Positions 1,985 to 35,458 of a stretch of 35,636 nt of DNA are shown here, one piece after another. The stretch lies in assembly GCA_021821045.1 (NCBI GenBank), contig JAKACW010000046.1:1-35636 (forward strand), given 5' to 3'. The translations under genes and the position numbers were made by a program. Each line of letters begins with the position of its first letter. Within the stretch, counting starts at the first letter, position 1. The DNA is from Pseudomonadota bacterium. GTDB taxonomy: Bacteria; Pseudomonadota; Gammaproteobacteria; JAADHS01. Under the pieces are notes generated by a model. That model did not search any database. It saw only the letters and a list, made by a program, of their open reading frames with translations, and had not been told where the DNA came from.

Positions 1985-2004
1985 AAATAAGCATCCGCTT
2001 ATTT
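1985..2004 (-). terminator. AT-rich hairpin terminator of cbbR
   Basis: This is a perfect 8-bp inverted repeat (AAATAAGC / GCTTATTT) with a 4-nt loop. On the minus strand it begins at the cbbR stop codon and is followed by a T-rich stretch. It looks like a Rho-independent terminator separating cbbR from the MetOD1/kinase pair. The low GC content of the stem makes its strength uncertain. Confidence 0.5.
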
Positions 2005-2978
2005 CATTGCGACGCCGCGTGCAGCTGGTCTGCACCGGCACTGCGCTCGGCTTTGATCAATTCCGCCGATTCACTGGTAATAAATTCAAGAAACGCCTGC
2101 GCCACCACCGAGGGCTGCTTCTCGCTCAAACGCCCGATTTGCCAGTCCCAATACACGGGAAAGCCGTCCACATTCAGCACCGTGATGTCGCCGCTTGCTC
2201 CGTCCGCCAGCAACGTGTGGGCGGACACCACCGCGATACCCAGTCCCGCCGCCACCACTTGCTTGATGGCTTCGTTGCTGCCCAGCTCCATGCGAATTTG
2301 CGGCTTGAGCCCAGAACGCTCGAACTGTCGCTCCACGGCGAGCCGCGTGCCAGAACCCGGCTCGCGCATGATGAACGGCTCCGCGGCAAGCTGCCGCAGT
2401 TCGATGTGCTGCGCGTTGGCCAAAGGATGACGAGTCGGCGCAATCATCACCAGCGGATTGCGCATGAACGGCTCAAAGTAGAAATGGGCGTCCGTCGGCG
2501 GCTGGCCGATGACGTAAAGATCGTCTAGGTTTTCCACCATGCGCTCAAGCAGCCGTTCCCGATTGGTCACTTTGAGGGCGACATCGATCTGCGGATAGCC
2601 CTCGAGAAACGCGCCCAATAGTCGTGGCACAAAATACTTTGCCGTGGTCACGACCGCCAAACGCAAATTGCCTTGCTTGAGGCCCTTCAGATCGGCGGCC
2701 TCCATCTCGAAATTTCCCAGTGCGCCGAACACATCGCGGCACGCCCGATGCAATTTGCGGCCGGCGTCGGTGAGGTAGATTTTCTTGCCCACTTGCTCGA
2801 ACAACGGCAGCCCGATGACGTCGGTGAGATTTTTGATTTGCGCCGACACCGTCGGCTGGGCCAGATGCAGTTCGTCCGCCGCGCGGGTAAAGCTCAAATG
2901 ACGCGCGATGGCCTCAAACACCTGCAATTGACGGAGGCTCGCGTGACGAATGAGCTTGGGAATGATGGGCTTCTCCAT
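2004..2978 (-). CDS. cbbR: CbbR-type LysR transcriptional regulator
   Basis: This is a 324-residue LysR-family regulator. The N-terminal winged helix-turn-helix (about residues 13-75) reads LRQLQVFEAIARHLSFTRAA, then AQPTVSAQIKNL. The C-terminal co-inducer-binding domain carries FVPRLL, NLDDLYVIGQPP and NPLVMIAPTRHPLA, typical of CbbR proteins. CbbR activates Calvin cycle operons in response to metabolites such as RuBP or NADPH. Its divergence from cbbL, with only 96 bp between the start codons, is the classical cbbR-cbb layout and the main support for the name. The ATG at 2978 is the natural start. A paralogue lies at 17301-18266. A hairpin follows directly at the stop. Confidence 0.9.
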   Translation of the reverse strand: MEKPIIPKLIRHASLRQLQVFEAIARHLSFTRAADELHLAQPTVSAQIKNLTDVIGLPLFEQVGKKIYLTDAGRKLHRACRDVFGALGNFEMEAADLKGLKQGNLRLAVVTTAKYFVPRLLGAFLEGYPQIDVALKVTNRERLLERMVENLDDLYVIGQPPTDAHFYFEPFMRNPLVMIAPTRHPLANAQHIELRQLAAEPFIMREPGSGTRLAVERQFERSGLKPQIRMELGSNEAIKQVVAAGLGIAVVSAHTLLADGASGDITVLNVDGFPVYWDWQIGRLSEKQPSVVAQAFLEFITSESAELIKAERSAGADQLHAASQ

Positions 2979-4562
<1,584 letters not shown>

Positions 4563-12643: not shown

Positions 12644-13987
12644 TCATTCCTTGAGCACGCACTTGCGGTAGAGATCCTTGAAAACACCGTTGGGATCATA
12701 TTTTTTCTTGAGTTCGTCGTAGTCGGATTTCGCATAGAGCCGCCAGAACTGCTCGGGCGTGTAGTACGAATCGGAATACAGGGACTTCCTGCCGCCGAGC
12801 GCCATCACCTCGTCTTCGATTTGGCGGTTGTAGAATCCGGGCGGCAACTGCTTCGTGCCGCGAATCACATCCCAGAAGCCGAAGTTGACATGGAGTTTGG
12901 AGGGATCAAGGTCGTAGAGACTGAATCTGGCGCTTGCGTCGTAGGCCCGCGTGGGACAAATCCAAATCGGCGTAAAGCCAACGATCTTGAAATAAAAATC
13001 CAGGAAGGCCGGGGCGTTTTCGATGGGAATCTGAACATCCTGGATGACCGGCTCGCTGTGGGTTCCCCGCAGCTTGTCCAAATAGTGGGTCACTTTCCAA
13101 CGACTGTTCCAGCGCATGAGCTTGGTGTAGGTCATCGAATTGAGTCTGCCACGGCCGTAGAGCCGCCGAACGATGGGGTTTTGTGCCAACAGATTTTTTG
13201 AACACCAGAACCAATCCGTGTCCCAGCGCCAAATATAATCCTTTGCTGTCAGGTAATCTTCCGTGCGCTCACGCAGCGAGCGGTAGTAGATTTTGTCGTA
13301 GGTGTAGTCACTGCTATAGGGGGCTTGTTGGGTGAACTTCCCCACGGAAATCACCATTTCATCCGAACCAAACACGACGCCGTCGACGAAGTCCACATCC
13401 GCTTGCTCGCACCGCCGCGCCAGTTCGGAAAAATACGCACGCGAATCTCGGTAGCGCAGGTGGGTAAGCTTCACGAAAGGCTTCACCGGCACAACCTTGG
13501 CTTTTAATCGTAAGGCGTAGCCCAGCGTCCCATAGGAGTTGGGGAAGCCATAGAACAGTTCGCGATGCTCGTTCGATGGCGTGCACAGCACGGTCACGCC
13601 ATGGCCGAGAAGAATTTCCATTTCCTGCACGGTTTCATGGACCAAACCATAACGAAACGAGGACGATTCGATGCCGCATCCCGCCACAGCCCCGCCAATG
13701 GTGATGGACTTCAACTGGGGCACAACGGCAGGCATCACGTTGTGCCTGAGACATTCGTCGACCAGCTTCACGTAGGGCGTCATGCCCTCCACTTCGACAA
13801 AACCGCCCTGCGGATCGACACGCAGAACATCATTCAAGTCCCTGACATCCAGAGGCGGGGCCTTGATTGCCTGGCGATCTCGGAACAGATTGGACGTGCT
13901 CTTGCCCAGACGGACATCTTTTCCGGTATGACCGCGAAGAGACTGCGTGACGCGCGCTCTCTTTTGTTCATACGTCGAAGTAATCAT
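12644..13987 (-). CDS. FAD-dependent oxidoreductase coupled to Cfa-type methyltransferase
   Basis: A 447-residue FAD-linked oxidase/reductase from the ATG at 13987, which overlaps the stop of the cfa-like gene (ATGA); a longer reading inside that gene is rejected. The PCMH-type FAD-binding half is visible: VEVEGMTPYVKLVDECLRH, then PQLKSITIGGAVAGCGIESS and FPNSYGTLGYALRL. The C-terminal half resembles the DHCR24/DWF1 group. No membrane span is evident. In actinobacteria the TmsA (BfaA) reductases of this group reduce a 10-methylene fatty acyl chain made by the methyltransferase TmsB (BfaB) to a 10-methyl chain. The tight coupling to a Cfa-family gene makes the same role plausible here. The FAD family is clear; the substrate is inference. 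Confidence 0.85.
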   Translation of the reverse strand: MITSTYEQKRARVTQSLRGHTGKDVRLGKSTSNLFRDRQAIKAPPLDVRDLNDVLRVDPQGGFVEVEGMTPYVKLVDECLRHNVMPAVVPQLKSITIGGAVAGCGIESSSFRYGLVHETVQEMEILLGHGVTVLCTPSNEHRELFYGFPNSYGTLGYALRLKAKVVPVKPFVKLTHLRYRDSRAYFSELARRCEQADVDFVDGVVFGSDEMVISVGKFTQQAPYSSDYTYDKIYYRSLRERTEDYLTAKDYIWRWDTDWFWCSKNLLAQNPIVRRLYGRGRLNSMTYTKLMRWNSRWKVTHYLDKLRGTHSEPVIQDVQIPIENAPAFLDFYFKIVGFTPIWICPTRAYDASARFSLYDLDPSKLHVNFGFWDVIRGTKQLPPGFYNRQIEDEVMALGGRKSLYSDSYYTPEQFWRLYAKSDYDELKKKYDPNGVFKDLYRKCVLKE

Positions 13988-15246
13988 TGAAATGGCGCTT
14001 CGCGTTGACCGGGAAGACCCTGCCCGTATAGATAGTCCCGCGTCCACGGTAGATCGCTCGCACCGGCGCGAGCGAACGTGATCTGAAACAATTGCATCCA
14101 CCCCGAACGGAATCCGTGAATGGCGCATGCGAGGTAGAACCGCCAGGCGCGGACGAACGTCTCGTCGAACATCTGCTCGACCCTGTCCGCGCTTTGCTCG
14201 AAACGGGCTAACCAGTGCTCCGCCGTTCGCGCATAGTGGAGCCGCAGGTTCTCGACATCGAGCACTGAAAACGCTCCCGACTTAAACACATCGAGCATTT
14301 CCGACAGCGCCGGAGGATAAGCGCCCGGAAAGATGTTTTGTTCGATCCAGGCATTCAGTGGCAGAGGCCGGTCGCGCCCAATCGAATGAATCAAACCGCG
14401 CCCGCCCCGCTCGAGGCAGCGCTCCAGCACCGACCCTAGTTCCGCGTAACGGTCCTTGCCCGCATGTTCCAGCATGCCGATCGAGACGAATGCGTCGAAA
14501 GATTCCGCAATGGCGCTGAAATCCTCTTCGATGAACTCCACTTGCCCGTCCAGGCCTTCGCGCCGTGCGCGCTCGCGCGCGTACTTGATCTGCTCCTGCG
14601 AGATGTTATACGCGCGAACCTTAACACCATAGTGTCGCGCCATATAGAGCGCCTGCGCGCCCCATCCACAACCGGCTTCCACAACGGTTTCGCCCGGCTT
14701 CAAGCGCAACTTGCGACAGACGTATTCCATCTTAGCTTGCTGCGCGTCGTCGAGGCTTGCGGTGGGCGTGGGGTAATATGCGCAAGTATAGACAAGGTCC
14801 GGGTCAAGCCAAAGCCGATAGAAGTCATTGCCCAGATCGTAATGGTGACGAATGTTGCTGCGCGCACGCGCCAACCTATGGGGCGCCAGCTTGGGAAATT
14901 TCAGCTTGAGTCGTTCCCACAACGGCGCCCCAACGCCCTGTGGGTCCAACGGGTCGAGATACCCCAACAGCGCCACCAAATCGCCATCGATCTCGACATC
15001 GCCCTGGGCGTAGGCCTCGCCAAAGTACAGGTCCGGTCGAAAGAGAAAACGCAACAGCAAGCCGCGCTGACTAATGCGAACCCGCACCTGCGGAGAAGCG
15101 CCGCCGGCACGGATAACTTCACCGTTCCATAAGACGAGTTCAATCGGCGGATTGCCCAGTATGGCGAGCGCACGGCGCAATGCCGAGCGCTCCAACCTGG
15201 AGACCTGGCCACGACTGTGAAGACCCGCATCGTTAACCGATTCCAT
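13984..15246 (-). CDS. Cyclopropane-fatty-acid synthase family SAM methyltransferase
   Basis: A 420-residue CFAS-family enzyme that transfers a methyl or methylene from SAM to an unsaturated phospholipid acyl chain. The CFAS entry motif is HHYDLGNDFYRLWLDPDLVY followed by TCAYY. The SAM site is VVEAGCGWGAQALYMA. Later family landmarks are SIGMLEHAG and WIEQNIFPGAYPP. The N-terminal domain of about 110 residues is typical. It could be a true cyclopropane synthase or a TmsB/UfaM-like methyltransferase; the 4-bp overlap with an FAD reductase gene favours the latter. It lies 132 bp downstream of the helicase gene on the same strand. The family is certain; the product is not. Confidence 0.93.
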   Translation of the reverse strand: MESVNDAGLHSRGQVSRLERSALRRALAILGNPPIELVLWNGEVIRAGGASPQVRVRISQRGLLLRFLFRPDLYFGEAYAQGDVEIDGDLVALLGYLDPLDPQGVGAPLWERLKLKFPKLAPHRLARARSNIRHHYDLGNDFYRLWLDPDLVYTCAYYPTPTASLDDAQQAKMEYVCRKLRLKPGETVVEAGCGWGAQALYMARHYGVKVRAYNISQEQIKYARERARREGLDGQVEFIEEDFSAIAESFDAFVSIGMLEHAGKDRYAELGSVLERCLERGGRGLIHSIGRDRPLPLNAWIEQNIFPGAYPPALSEMLDVFKSGAFSVLDVENLRLHYARTAEHWLARFEQSADRVEQMFDETFVRAWRFYLACAIHGFRSGWMQLFQITFARAGASDLPWTRDYLYGQGLPGQREAPFQ

Positions 15247-25693: not shown

Positions 25694-26689
25694 TTACAGT
25701 CTGGAAATGATTCGCGCGTGCGGCTTGCTGGGAACGGAGGAAAGATAGTGAACACTGAATAGGTCGGCCGAATCGGTCCATACTCGCCGTGGGTGGAAAC
25801 CGGCGGCACGGGCCAACGCGTGGAACTGCTCGATGGAGTATTTGTATGAGTTCTCAGTGTGAATACTATCGCCGCGCTCGAAGCTGAAGCGTCGACCGAG
25901 CACGTGAATGTCCTGGCGGCCTCGGCTGACCAGGTGTATCTCGATGCGTCCCGGCCCACCATTGTAAAACGCGCGATGTTGAAATCCGTCGACGTTCAAC
26001 GTCGCACCGAGTTCGCGGAGTATGCGTTTCAGCAGATTCCGATTGAATGCGGCGGTGATGCCCTGGCTGTCGTTATAGGCGTCGTGGAGAATCCGCGGGT
26101 CCTTCTTCAAGTCGACGCCGATAAGCAAACCGCCATTCGGCTGCGCCACGCGCCGCAGGCGTTGCAGCAGCGTCAATGCGTCGTGGGGCTCGAAATTGCC
26201 GATGGTAGATCCCGGAAAAAACAACACCCGCCGCTCGGACTCCGCGAATATCGGCAAGTCGAACTCCTCGGAGAAATCGGCGCACACGGCATGGGTCTCG
26301 AGCCACGGGTAGTCGCGTGCCAAACGCGATACCGAGTCGTGCAAAAACGCCTGTGAAATGTCAAGTCCGGCATAATGGCGCGGCCGCAGCGCCTCAAGCA
26401 GCAACCTGATCTTGCGCGATGCACCGCTGCCCAGCTCGATCAGCGTCGCATCCTTGCCGATCAGCCCCGACAGCTCCATCGCACACGCCTGCAGAATCCC
26501 CATCTCCGTGCGCGTCGGATAGTACTCCGGCAGATCGCAGATTGCGTCGAATAACCGCGAGCCTTCCTCGTCGTAGAAGAACTTCGGCGAAATGCGCCGC
26601 GGCCGACGGGTCAAGCCCTGTAGAACCGCATCGCCCAGGCATTGCGGCGATGGGGCTGTGCCATGAAAACGGATCGATTGCTTTTTCAT
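25694..26689 (-). CDS. egtD: L-histidine N-alpha-methyltransferase
   Basis: EgtD, 331 residues from the ATG at 26689, which overlaps the egtB stop (ATGA); a much longer open frame upstream lies inside egtB and is ignored. It trimethylates histidine to hercynine using three SAM, the first step of ergothioneine synthesis. Landmarks are SPKFFYDEEGSRLFDAI, LPEYYPTRTEMGIL, the SAM site LIELGSGASRKIRLLLEAL, FFPGSTIGNF, GVDLKKD and the C-terminal HTENSYKYS. Length matches the family (about 320). EgtB, encoded directly upstream, uses its product, so the pair is a two-gene pathway unit. Confidence 0.96.
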   Translation of the reverse strand: MKKQSIRFHGTAPSPQCLGDAVLQGLTRRPRRISPKFFYDEEGSRLFDAICDLPEYYPTRTEMGILQACAMELSGLIGKDATLIELGSGASRKIRLLLEALRPRHYAGLDISQAFLHDSVSRLARDYPWLETHAVCADFSEEFDLPIFAESERRVLFFPGSTIGNFEPHDALTLLQRLRRVAQPNGGLLIGVDLKKDPRILHDAYNDSQGITAAFNRNLLKRILRELGATLNVDGFQHRAFYNGGPGRIEIHLVSRGRQDIHVLGRRFSFERGDSIHTENSYKYSIEQFHALARAAGFHPRRVWTDSADLFSVHYLSSVPSKPHARIISRL

Positions 26690-27993
26690 AGGTCGCGCGC
26701 CAAGCGCAGACCGGAAAACTGCCAGCGGTCCGCAGGGTAGAAAAAATTGCGATAACTGGCGCGAATGTGCGCCGTCGGCGTCACACATGAACCGCCGCGA
26801 AGGACAAGCTGGTTGACCATGAACTTGCCATTGTATTCGCCGAGCGCTCCGCTCGCCGGGCGGTAACCGGGATAAGGCGCATACGCACTCTGCGTCCACT
26901 CCCAAACATCGCCGAACATTTGGGCGACAGGTTCGTCGCCCGCGGCGGCCGGAACAGGATGCAGATGGTCCGCTTCGCGCAAATTGCCCGCGCATACGTG
27001 CTCGTTCGCCACGGCCTCCCACTCCGCTTCCGTGGGCAGGCGCGCCCCGGCCCAGCGCGCGTAGGCGTCGGCCTCGTAGTAGCTGATGTGACAGACGGGT
27101 TCGAGTTCGTCCAGCGGGCGCAGACCGCCAAGCGTAAACATGAACCACCCGCCGTCGTTTTGCTGCCAGTAAAGCGGGGACTGCCATCCCCGTTCATTGG
27201 CCGCGCGCCAGCCGTCGGACAACCATAACTCGGGTCGCCGGTAGCCGCCGTCGTCCAAGAATGCGAGATACTCGCCGTTGGTGACAAGCCGCGACGCAAC
27301 GGCATGGGGCGACAACAAAACCCGATGGCGCGGCGTTTCGTTGTCGAACGCGAACCCATCCCCGTGGTGACCGATGCGGTATTCCCCGCCTTCACGCGAA
27401 AGCCATCTCAACGGGGTTTGGACGACGGCAGCGGCGCGCTTAAGATCGTCGCGATATGCCGGCGCAAGCGGATTGAAAAAGAGGTTGTATTTGATATCGG
27501 TTAAAAACAGTTCCTGGTGCTGCTCTTCGTGATGGCAACCCAGTTGCGCGCGCGATTCGATCGCCGCCCACTGCGCTTCCGGCGTGTTCGTGAGCAGCGC
27601 ATGCATGGCTTCATCCACATGGGCTCGATAGCGGTATACCTCGCCGATGGTGGGCCGCGATAGGAGTCCGCGCTGAGATCGGGGAAATTGAGCGCCGACG
27701 CCGTTGTAGTACGAGTTGAACAGATAGGCGAACTGCGGATGAAACTCGCGATAGTCGGCAACAAACGGTTTAAGCAGAAACGTCTCGAAAAACCAGGTGG
27801 TATGGGCGAGATGCCACTTGGCCGGGCTGACATCGGCCATGGCCTGTAAATTGTAGTCGTCCGGAGCAAGCGGTTGCGCAAGAGATTCGCTCGCGGCGCG
27901 CGCGCTGTGATATCGCGCTTCTGCGTCATTGCGCAATGAACGATCGTCTCGCGTCGCGCCGCGTTGCAGAACGGCGCCAGGGGTTCGCGTCAC
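26686..27993 (-). CDS. egtB: Hercynine oxygenase (sulfoxide synthase) EgtB
   Basis: EgtB, 435 residues from a GTG at 27993, chosen because a GGGAG site lies just upstream and the length then matches relatives; an in-frame codon at 28065 adds 24 atypical residues. The N-terminal DinB-like domain carries the iron ligands His64 (WHLAHTTWFF) and HHEEQHQE (His145, His149, with Glu151). The C-terminal FGE-sulfatase domain shows RLPTEAEWEAVANE, GDVWEWTQSAYAPYPGYRP, LRGGSCVTP and the final RWQFSGLRLARDL. The enzyme couples hercynine to gamma-glutamylcysteine or cysteine with O2. No egtA, egtC or egtE is nearby. The gene is upstream of and overlapping with egtD. Confidence 0.95.
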   Translation of the reverse strand: MTRTPGAVLQRGATRDDRSLRNDAEARYHSARAASESLAQPLAPDDYNLQAMADVSPAKWHLAHTTWFFETFLLKPFVADYREFHPQFAYLFNSYYNGVGAQFPRSQRGLLSRPTIGEVYRYRAHVDEAMHALLTNTPEAQWAAIESRAQLGCHHEEQHQELFLTDIKYNLFFNPLAPAYRDDLKRAAAVVQTPLRWLSREGGEYRIGHHGDGFAFDNETPRHRVLLSPHAVASRLVTNGEYLAFLDDGGYRRPELWLSDGWRAANERGWQSPLYWQQNDGGWFMFTLGGLRPLDELEPVCHISYYEADAYARWAGARLPTEAEWEAVANEHVCAGNLREADHLHPVPAAAGDEPVAQMFGDVWEWTQSAYAPYPGYRPASGALGEYNGKFMVNQLVLRGGSCVTPTAHIRASYRNFFYPADRWQFSGLRLARDL

Positions 27994-33892: not shown

Positions 33893-35446
33893 CTAGTGTG
33901 CGGTCGCCGGCGACAACCCCTGCGTTTGCGCCGGCGCCGGAGCGGCCTTGGCTTTCGCCTTTTTCTCCAGCAGCGCCGCGAGTTCTTCGGGCGTGCGCCC
34001 GTATAAACAGTTCTCGTCGTGTTCCTTGTCCCGCGTCTTCTCGATGCTGCCTTCAAAACGCGGATCCGCGCCGCGCTCATTGCTATTCATAAATAAGGCC
34101 ACGTCCCACGCTTCCTGATCGGTCAGCGTGCCGCCGCGGCCATACGGCATATTCATCTTGATAAAGCCCGCCGCCGTGTTGATGCGATGCATGCCGGCGC
34201 CCCAGTTGTATGACTTCTCGCCCCACAATGGCGGAAAGGCGTACGCGCCGTTGGCCTGCGTTCCCTCGCCGTTGGCGCCGTGGCAGATCACGCAGTTGTT
34301 TTTATACACTTCCGCGCCGCGCGCAATGTCGGGCGTTTTGGGCGGTTTCGCCACTTCAACGAATCCCTGGCCCGGCAACTTAACCCCCGTCGGCGCGCCG
34401 CTCGCCAGCCAATAGTGATAGGTCACCAGCGCTGTCATTTCTTTGCTGTCCGCCGGGGGTGCCTTGCCGTTCATGCTGTAGAGAAAGCAGCCCTGAATGC
34501 GGGTTTGAATGGTGTCCACCTGTCTTGTTTTCGTGCGATAGGCGGGATACAGCACATAGGCTGCCCACAGCGGTGCGGAGTCCGCTTTGCGCCCATTGTC
34601 GAGATGGCAGTTGGCGCAATTCAGGCCGTTGCCCACATACTGCTTCGCGAAATTCTGCGTGTTGGTGAAAATGCTTTTTCCCATCATGACGGTCTCGCCG
34701 AACTCGTTCTTGGGAATCGCGCTTTCGGGTGGCGGTACGAACTTGGCGGGTTTCGCCGCGGCAGTCTCGCCTTTCGCCGGAACGTTGCTGCGGTAGGCGC
34801 CGCTCTGAGCCGGCTCCGCGCCGGTGAGCGTCGCCAGATACTGCGCCACAGCCTGCATGTCGTCGTCGGTAAGATTTTCCGCCAGGGTTTTCATCAGGCT
34901 CTGCGGATCGTTGCTGCGTGTGCCGCTCTTCCATGCCTTCAATTGACTGACCGTATACGATGCATGCTGTCCGGCGAGCGGCGGAAACGCGGGCGCCACG
35001 CCCACGCCGCCCGGCCCATGACATCTGAAGCAGGGCGCAATCTGTCGATCCCACGCGCCGTTGTTCGCCAGCTCTTCGCCGCGCGCAATGATCGCGGGAT
35101 CGCCCGCGGCGGGTTTTGTTTTCGGACGCGGCAAGCTCTCATAGTATGCTGCGGCGGCTTGCGCATCCTCCGCGGTCATGGCCTGCGCGATCATCGACAT
35201 GAGCGGGTTCTCGCGCGTGCCCGCTTTGAAATCATCGATCTGCTTTACAAAGTAGGCCTGGGGCAATTGCGCGAGCATCGGAATTCCGCTTTGCGGATTG
35301 CCCGCCCCATCTGCGCCGTGGCACCCGACGCACGCCATCGCACCGCCGCTGCCCTGGGTGACAATAGCGGGTGGCGCCGCGATTGCCGCCGCGGTGACGA
35401 TGAACAGCGTGATGATTGCCACTACTAGAGTATTGATAGATCGCAT
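33893..35446 (-). CDS. tsdBA: TsdB-TsdA fusion, tetraheme thiosulfate dehydrogenase
   Basis: A 517-residue periplasmic cytochrome c from the ATG at 35446 (GGGGGG just upstream; a TTG four codons earlier is less likely). The signal peptide ends near residue 24. Four heme sites are present: CVGCH (39-43), CFRCH (139-143), CANCH (277-281) and CVICH (385-389). The first two lie in cytochrome c4-like domains (TsdB-like). The last two form a TsdA-like catalytic unit with Cys320 in QGCFLYSMNG, the likely axial cysteine of the active-site heme, and FIKMNMP near residue 430 for the Lys/Met ligands of the second TsdA heme. The enzyme joins two thiosulfates to tetrathionate or the reverse. A Pro/Lys-rich linker (about 212-245) joins the halves. 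Confidence 0.88.
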   Translation of the reverse strand: MRSINTLVVAIITLFIVTAAAIAAPPAIVTQGSGGAMACVGCHGADGAGNPQSGIPMLAQLPQAYFVKQIDDFKAGTRENPLMSMIAQAMTAEDAQAAAAYYESLPRPKTKPAAGDPAIIARGEELANNGAWDRQIAPCFRCHGPGGVGVAPAFPPLAGQHASYTVSQLKAWKSGTRSNDPQSLMKTLAENLTDDDMQAVAQYLATLTGAEPAQSGAYRSNVPAKGETAAAKPAKFVPPPESAIPKNEFGETVMMGKSIFTNTQNFAKQYVGNGLNCANCHLDNGRKADSAPLWAAYVLYPAYRTKTRQVDTIQTRIQGCFLYSMNGKAPPADSKEMTALVTYHYWLASGAPTGVKLPGQGFVEVAKPPKTPDIARGAEVYKNNCVICHGANGEGTQANGAYAFPPLWGEKSYNWGAGMHRINTAAGFIKMNMPYGRGGTLTDQEAWDVALFMNSNERGADPRFEGSIEKTRDKEHDENCLYGRTPEELAALLEKKAKAKAAPAPAQTQGLSPATAH

Positions 35447-35458
35447 TGAACCCCCCAA

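Follow-up and report, generated by a model that had tools for sequence, protein, structure and literature searches.

The 35,636-nucleotide stretch of Pseudomonadota DNA analysed here (the window) carries a Cfa-family methyltransferase gene directly followed by a gene for an FAD-dependent protein. This raises the question of whether the two form methyl-branched, cyclopropane or furan fatty acids, or whether the FAD protein serves another process. 10-Methyl fatty acids are biomarkers of tuberculosis-group bacteria and sulfate reducers, and are targets for biolubricants.

The gene pair and its FAD protein

As the original prediction stated, the two genes share an ATGA overlap, both lying on the minus strand (Table 1): bases 13987-13984 read ATGA, so that the methyltransferase stop overlaps the FAD-gene start. 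The methyltransferase gene begins at an ATG with the sequence GGGAAGGA 5' of the start. Mechanical ORF calling extends the FAD gene as far as 14128, but homologues align from 13987. Pfam assigns a CMAS domain (PF02353, 267 bits) to the methyltransferase and FAD_binding_4 (PF01565, 49 bits) to its partner. A scan of the window against Rfam gave no matches, promoter-like sites were no commoner than in shuffles, and no terminator-like site was found just 3' of the pair. Both genes occur in the same order at locus L036 (67% identity for the methyltransferase, 72-73% for the FAD protein), and most betaproteobacterial relatives have a CMAS gene directly 5' of the BfaA-family gene; because homologous pairs recur in this way, the pairing is not due to chance.

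Table 1. Coordinates of the gene pair in the window
Feature	Position	Strand	Length	Basis or remark
Cfa-family fatty-acyl methyltransferase, tmpB-type (clade W), predicted methylene-forming	13984..15246	minus	420 aa	domain, tree, residues
BfaA/TmsA-family FAD-dependent reductase (FAD_binding_4, VAO/PCMH fold)	12644..13987	minus	447 aa	
ATGA stop/start overlap of both genes	13984..13987	minus		putative translational coupling

The window's genome (4.5 Mb, 98% complete) encodes a single full-length CMAS protein, which is the window methyltransferase, the remaining matches being weak generic methyltransferases, and a single BfaA-family protein. Elsewhere in the window are genes for a RuBisCO large subunit and for a SoxA/TsdA-type cytochrome, which would suit a sulfur-oxidising autotroph. 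The RuBisCO gene is divergent from that of a LysR-type regulator (2004-4562, a cbbR-cbb layout), and the cytochrome (33893-35458), possibly a thiosulfate dehydrogenase, is 521 aa long and has multiple cytochrome c domains, of which one matches SoxA/TsdA. An ORF at 25694-27187 has a histidine-specific (EgtD-type) methyltransferase domain and ~185 extra N-terminal residues.

Judged by full-length homology and family motifs, the FAD protein is a true member of the BfaA/TmsA family, the identity originally predicted for it. Full-length plasmid relatives detected by tblastn are 42-53% identical and occur in Variovorax, Nonomuraea, Nocardia, Tsukamurella and Prescottella (42-49% at 89-99% query cover for the latter four, actinobacterial genera), and relatives in other genomes share 49-72% identity. 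A scan of named genomes for the family gave 80 loci, the nearest (68-73%) belonging to Muproteobacteria, Sulfuricaulis, a Chromatiaceae MAG and an Acidithiobacillales MAG. The signatures KxTSNLFR and WRWDTDWFWCS, nearly invariant across the family, are present in the window protein. NADPH-dependent reduction of 10-methylene chains has been shown for Thermomonospora curvata BfaA (PMC7791843). The Variovorax plasmid locus has the methyltransferase first, as in the window. In Tsukamurella the FAD gene is 5' of the Cfa-family gene and adjoins genes for an SRPBCC protein and DNA polymerase III gamma/tau, the same kind of neighbours as in the Rv3718c-Rv3720 layout of Mycobacterium tuberculosis. Since its neighbours match that layout (PMC11925245), the Tsukamurella locus can be regarded as a bona fide bfaAB. 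Two loci are unusual: on a Prescottella plasmid (L029) bfaA-like and methyltransferase sequences form an inverted duplicate near position 3700 in which the frames are broken and which may be an assembly palindrome, and at L065:1844-4246 two opposed, slightly overlapping methyltransferase genes of the BfaA-associated type adjoin one FAD gene.

The methyltransferase and its bicarbonate site

The methyltransferase is ~50% identical to a gammaproteobacterial set that we term clade W, ~35% identical to Cfa proteins, 35% to betaproteobacterial BfaA-adjacent enzymes, 29% to UfaM-type enzymes and about 28% (mean 28.5%) to actinobacterial BfaB. Clade W comprises 26 rows of the tree (SH-aLRT 99), includes the window enzyme, which pairs with that of L036 at support 100, and is separate from the Cfa, UfaM and actinobacterial BfaB groups; the DUF1365-adjacent methyltransferases form a clade of their own. 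The original prediction named grouping within bona fide Cfa as a placement that would speak against it; the window enzyme falls outside the Cfa groups. That prediction also took the pair to be equivalent to TmsB/TmsA (BfaB/BfaA), which holds for the reductase but not for the methyltransferase, given its low identity to BfaB and its separate clade. A single clade for all reductase-partnered methyltransferases was rejected (p-AU 1.1e-5), and these enzymes are polyphyletic. We infer that clade W corresponds to the published TmpB, on the basis of partner gene, gene order and ~29% identity to T. curvata-family BfaB; the published TmpB-BfaB identity is 31% (PMC7791843). On plasmids, tblastn for a close methyltransferase relative reached at best ~41%, in Cfa-like genes of alphaproteobacteria, and neither of the two such loci inspected had a BfaA-type neighbour.

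The window methyltransferase keeps the bicarbonate-site residues C155, E260, H261, H287, I289 and Y338, and beside this site T154 and L259 replace Ser138 and Phe238 of Escherichia coli Cfa. Thr precedes the bicarbonate-binding Cys in 46/46 clade W, 15/15 actinobacterial and 47/48 other BfaA-adjacent enzymes, whereas Ser does so in 8/8 Cfa and 28/28 UfaM-type rows; a clade W row added later (L255) has Ser at the Thr154 position. Immediately before the catalytic Glu, the Cfa proteins, a small sample of 8, all carry Phe, which the reductase-partnered enzymes never have there. DUF1365-adjacent (UfaM-type) enzymes have lost H261 and H287 in 28/28 cases, with C155 changed to Ser or Ala in 24/28. The Thr/non-Phe signature appears convergent, because a single clade of partnered enzymes is rejected; an independent-pairs test of Thr154 yielded 3-5 pairs, nearly all in the expected direction and too few for significance. 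A Thr/Leu signature occurs inside the alphaproteobacterial Cfa group in L130, previously labelled as 'other', whose genome (G071, a Geminicoccaceae MAG) carries the BfaA-family gene L064. This combination is probably a further independent methylene-forming lineage.

Distribution of TmpA and BfaA among clade W genomes

Clade W genomes without BfaA usually have a geranylgeranyl-reductase-like gene directly 3' of the methyltransferase (TIGR02032 and PDB 3oz2 matches). We identify this neighbour as TmpA because the arrangement fits the published description of tmpB-tmpA, in which the methylase comes first and TmpA resembles archaeal geranylgeranyl reductases (PMC7791843). No TmpA was found in the window's genome, where a BfaA-type gene stands in its place, and the window looks like a TmpB-type methylase with a BfaA-type reductase instead of TmpA.

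A census of 232 gammaproteobacterial genomes found clade W in 34, TmpA in 29 and BfaA in 8. The 34 clade W genomes divide into 27 with TmpA, five with BfaA, two with neither and none with both, an exclusion with P = 7.5e-5 under independent placement and P = 3.7e-4 once the window's own genome is removed; the five BfaA genomes represent five families, and the P values otherwise ignore common descent. Across a wider set of 369 genomes, 40 have TmpA, 14 have BfaA and none has both, which is not significant alone as both are rare, the exclusion being significant only among clade W carriers. A methyltransferase partner is present in each of the 14 BfaA genomes (clade W in 10, another type directly adjacent in four). 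One genus holds both arrangements, G013 with TmpA and G267 (87% complete) with BfaA. Among 20 BfaA genomes reached via loci, 19 lack TmpA and one has only a weak 91-bit paralogue. Many of the nearest FAD loci have no methyltransferase alongside; when 20 genomes with such loci or neighbouring them were searched in full, 16 proved to have a clade W gene, including one split at contig edges and the adjacent one of L036. The two genes are mostly non-adjacent in genomes with BfaA and clade W. Two genomes of one family, G030 (L010) and G182 (L205/L206), have clade W without TmpA or a close BfaA; G030 encodes elsewhere a near-full-length FAD_binding_4 protein, 27% identical, which could be a third reductase type.

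This distribution suggests that TmpA and BfaA are equivalent, an indication from genomics, as TmpA activity has never been demonstrated (PMC7791843). The original prediction of such a pathway outside actinobacteria holds, but not as something new: a 2021 paper described tmpBA in Desulfobacter, Marinobacter and Thiohalospira (PMC7791843), and a thiosulfate-oxidising Thioalkalivibrio is reported to contain 10-Me-C16:0, in passages that name no methyl-branching operon (PMC8092127). What is new here is the hybrid TmpB-type/BfaA-type pairing and the partner exchange. Blitzblau et al. concluded that bfa and tmp had separate origins from unrelated reductases, opposite gene orders and distant hosts (PMC7791843). 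The gene-order and host-distance arguments are weakened because the window shows a proteobacterial operon in which the methylase comes first and the reductase is BfaA-type, and the hybrid pair speaks against the separate evolution of the two pathways.

We lean slightly towards a modular origin of methyl-branch synthesis, in which BfaA would have been joined by several independent Cfa-family methylases (actinobacterial, betaproteobacterial, Nitrospira/Acidobacteria, tmp-type gammaproteobacterial and probably a Geminicoccaceae one), with convergent changes beside the bicarbonate site (S138T and loss of F238) and with TmpA and BfaA interchangeable. If this is true, the methylene reductase missing from proteobacteria would be TmpA, and the two residues would help to steer the product to methylene, not cyclopropane. 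The hybrid pair offers indirect evidence on what TmpA does and points to two residues as a candidate product switch, and the window reductase, a proteobacterial member of an active family, may work with efficient TmpB methylases. The pair also cautions against ascribing 10-Me-16:0 in sediments to sulfate reducers only.

Proposed pathway, alternatives and known systems

We consider it highly probable that the gene pair is a two-gene pathway to mid-chain methyl-branched membrane fatty acids, a reading built on sequence, phylogeny and co-occurrence, from which the chemistry, substrate and product given below are inferred. Judged by the clade and motif of the methyltransferase and by its genome partner, its substrate would be a phospholipid-bound monounsaturated chain, probably 16:1 delta-9 and also 18:1 delta-11. 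The enzyme would methylate the double bond of this chain with S-adenosylmethionine as donor, and proton loss would leave an exo-methylene branch and no cyclopropane ring. By homology to BfaA, the NADPH-reduced FAD protein would then reduce the methylene to a methyl group, giving 10-methylhexadecanoate and some 12-methyloctadecanoate. The likely product is 10-methylhexadecanoic acid; a search of the available literature for such 10-methyl chains in Sulfuricaulis and its relatives, or in Variovorax, found nothing usable. The methyl-branched product originally predicted is most likely, rather than a cyclopropane one.

An ordinary cyclopropane fatty acid synthase, with the FAD gene serving another process, is an unlikely reading of the methyltransferase. 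The enzyme retains the entire bicarbonate site, matches the NCBIfam Cfa models, albeit below their cut-offs, and is slightly closer to Cfa proteins than to BfaB. However, its position in the tree and its T154 and L259, where all of the sampled Cfa proteins have Ser and Phe, argue otherwise, as do the presence of one of the two reductases in 32/34 clade W genomes and the fact that, in several phyla, members of the FAD family adjoin Cfa-family genes that are unrelated. Still less probable is a furan fatty acid route, the alternative raised originally, in which UfaM-like methylation would be followed by FAD-dependent desaturation. UfaM is indeed a Cfa relative and UfaD a flavoprotein (PMC7380195), but UfaD is phytoene-desaturase-like and not of the FAD_binding_4 family (PMC7380195), no DUF1365 protein (UfaO) was found in the 98% complete host genome, and the separate DUF1365-adjacent clade lacks residues of the bicarbonate site that are intact in the window enzyme; the alternative is best set aside.

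The FAD protein might instead act as an oxidase or dehydrogenase, like cytokinin oxidase or DprE1, which we regard as very improbable. Its model (pLDDT 88.9) has a VAO/PCMH fold along the whole length, and the closest solved folds are DprE1, galactonolactone dehydrogenase and cytokinin oxidase, but at ~13-19% identity the match speaks for fold, not function. The protein also lacks the GHS covalent-FAD motif, its family is genomically tied to Cfa-family methyltransferases across phyla, and the characterised T. curvata homologue is a reductase (PMC7791843). Its M. tuberculosis relative Rv3719 is discussed as a putative cytokinin oxidase, in passages that make no mention of the 10-methylstearate pathway (PMC11925245); by locus layout, Rv3719 is the bfaA gene of that pathway.

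Compared with known systems, the proposed methyl-branching pair shares with actinobacterial bfaA-bfaB (tmsA-tmsB; PMC5660069, PMC7791843) a methylase and an FAD_binding_4 reductase homologous over its full length, but the gene order is reversed and the methyltransferase belongs to another branch of the Cfa family. It resembles tmpB-tmpA of Desulfobacter, Marinobacter and Thiohalospira (PMC7791843) in having the methyltransferase first, and in that this enzyme falls in a proteobacterial clade with an adjoining geranylgeranyl-reductase-like gene, the difference being a BfaA-family reductase in place of TmpA. With E. coli Cfa it has in common the family and the SAM and bicarbonate sites (C139, E239, H266, I268 and Y317 in Cfa), but differs by S138T and F238L, a reductase partner and a separate clade. 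The UfaM/UfaD/UfaO furan pathway (PMC7380195) likewise involves Cfa-family methylation of vaccenate-type chains, whereas the window pair has no UfaO, a flavoprotein of another family and an intact bicarbonate site.
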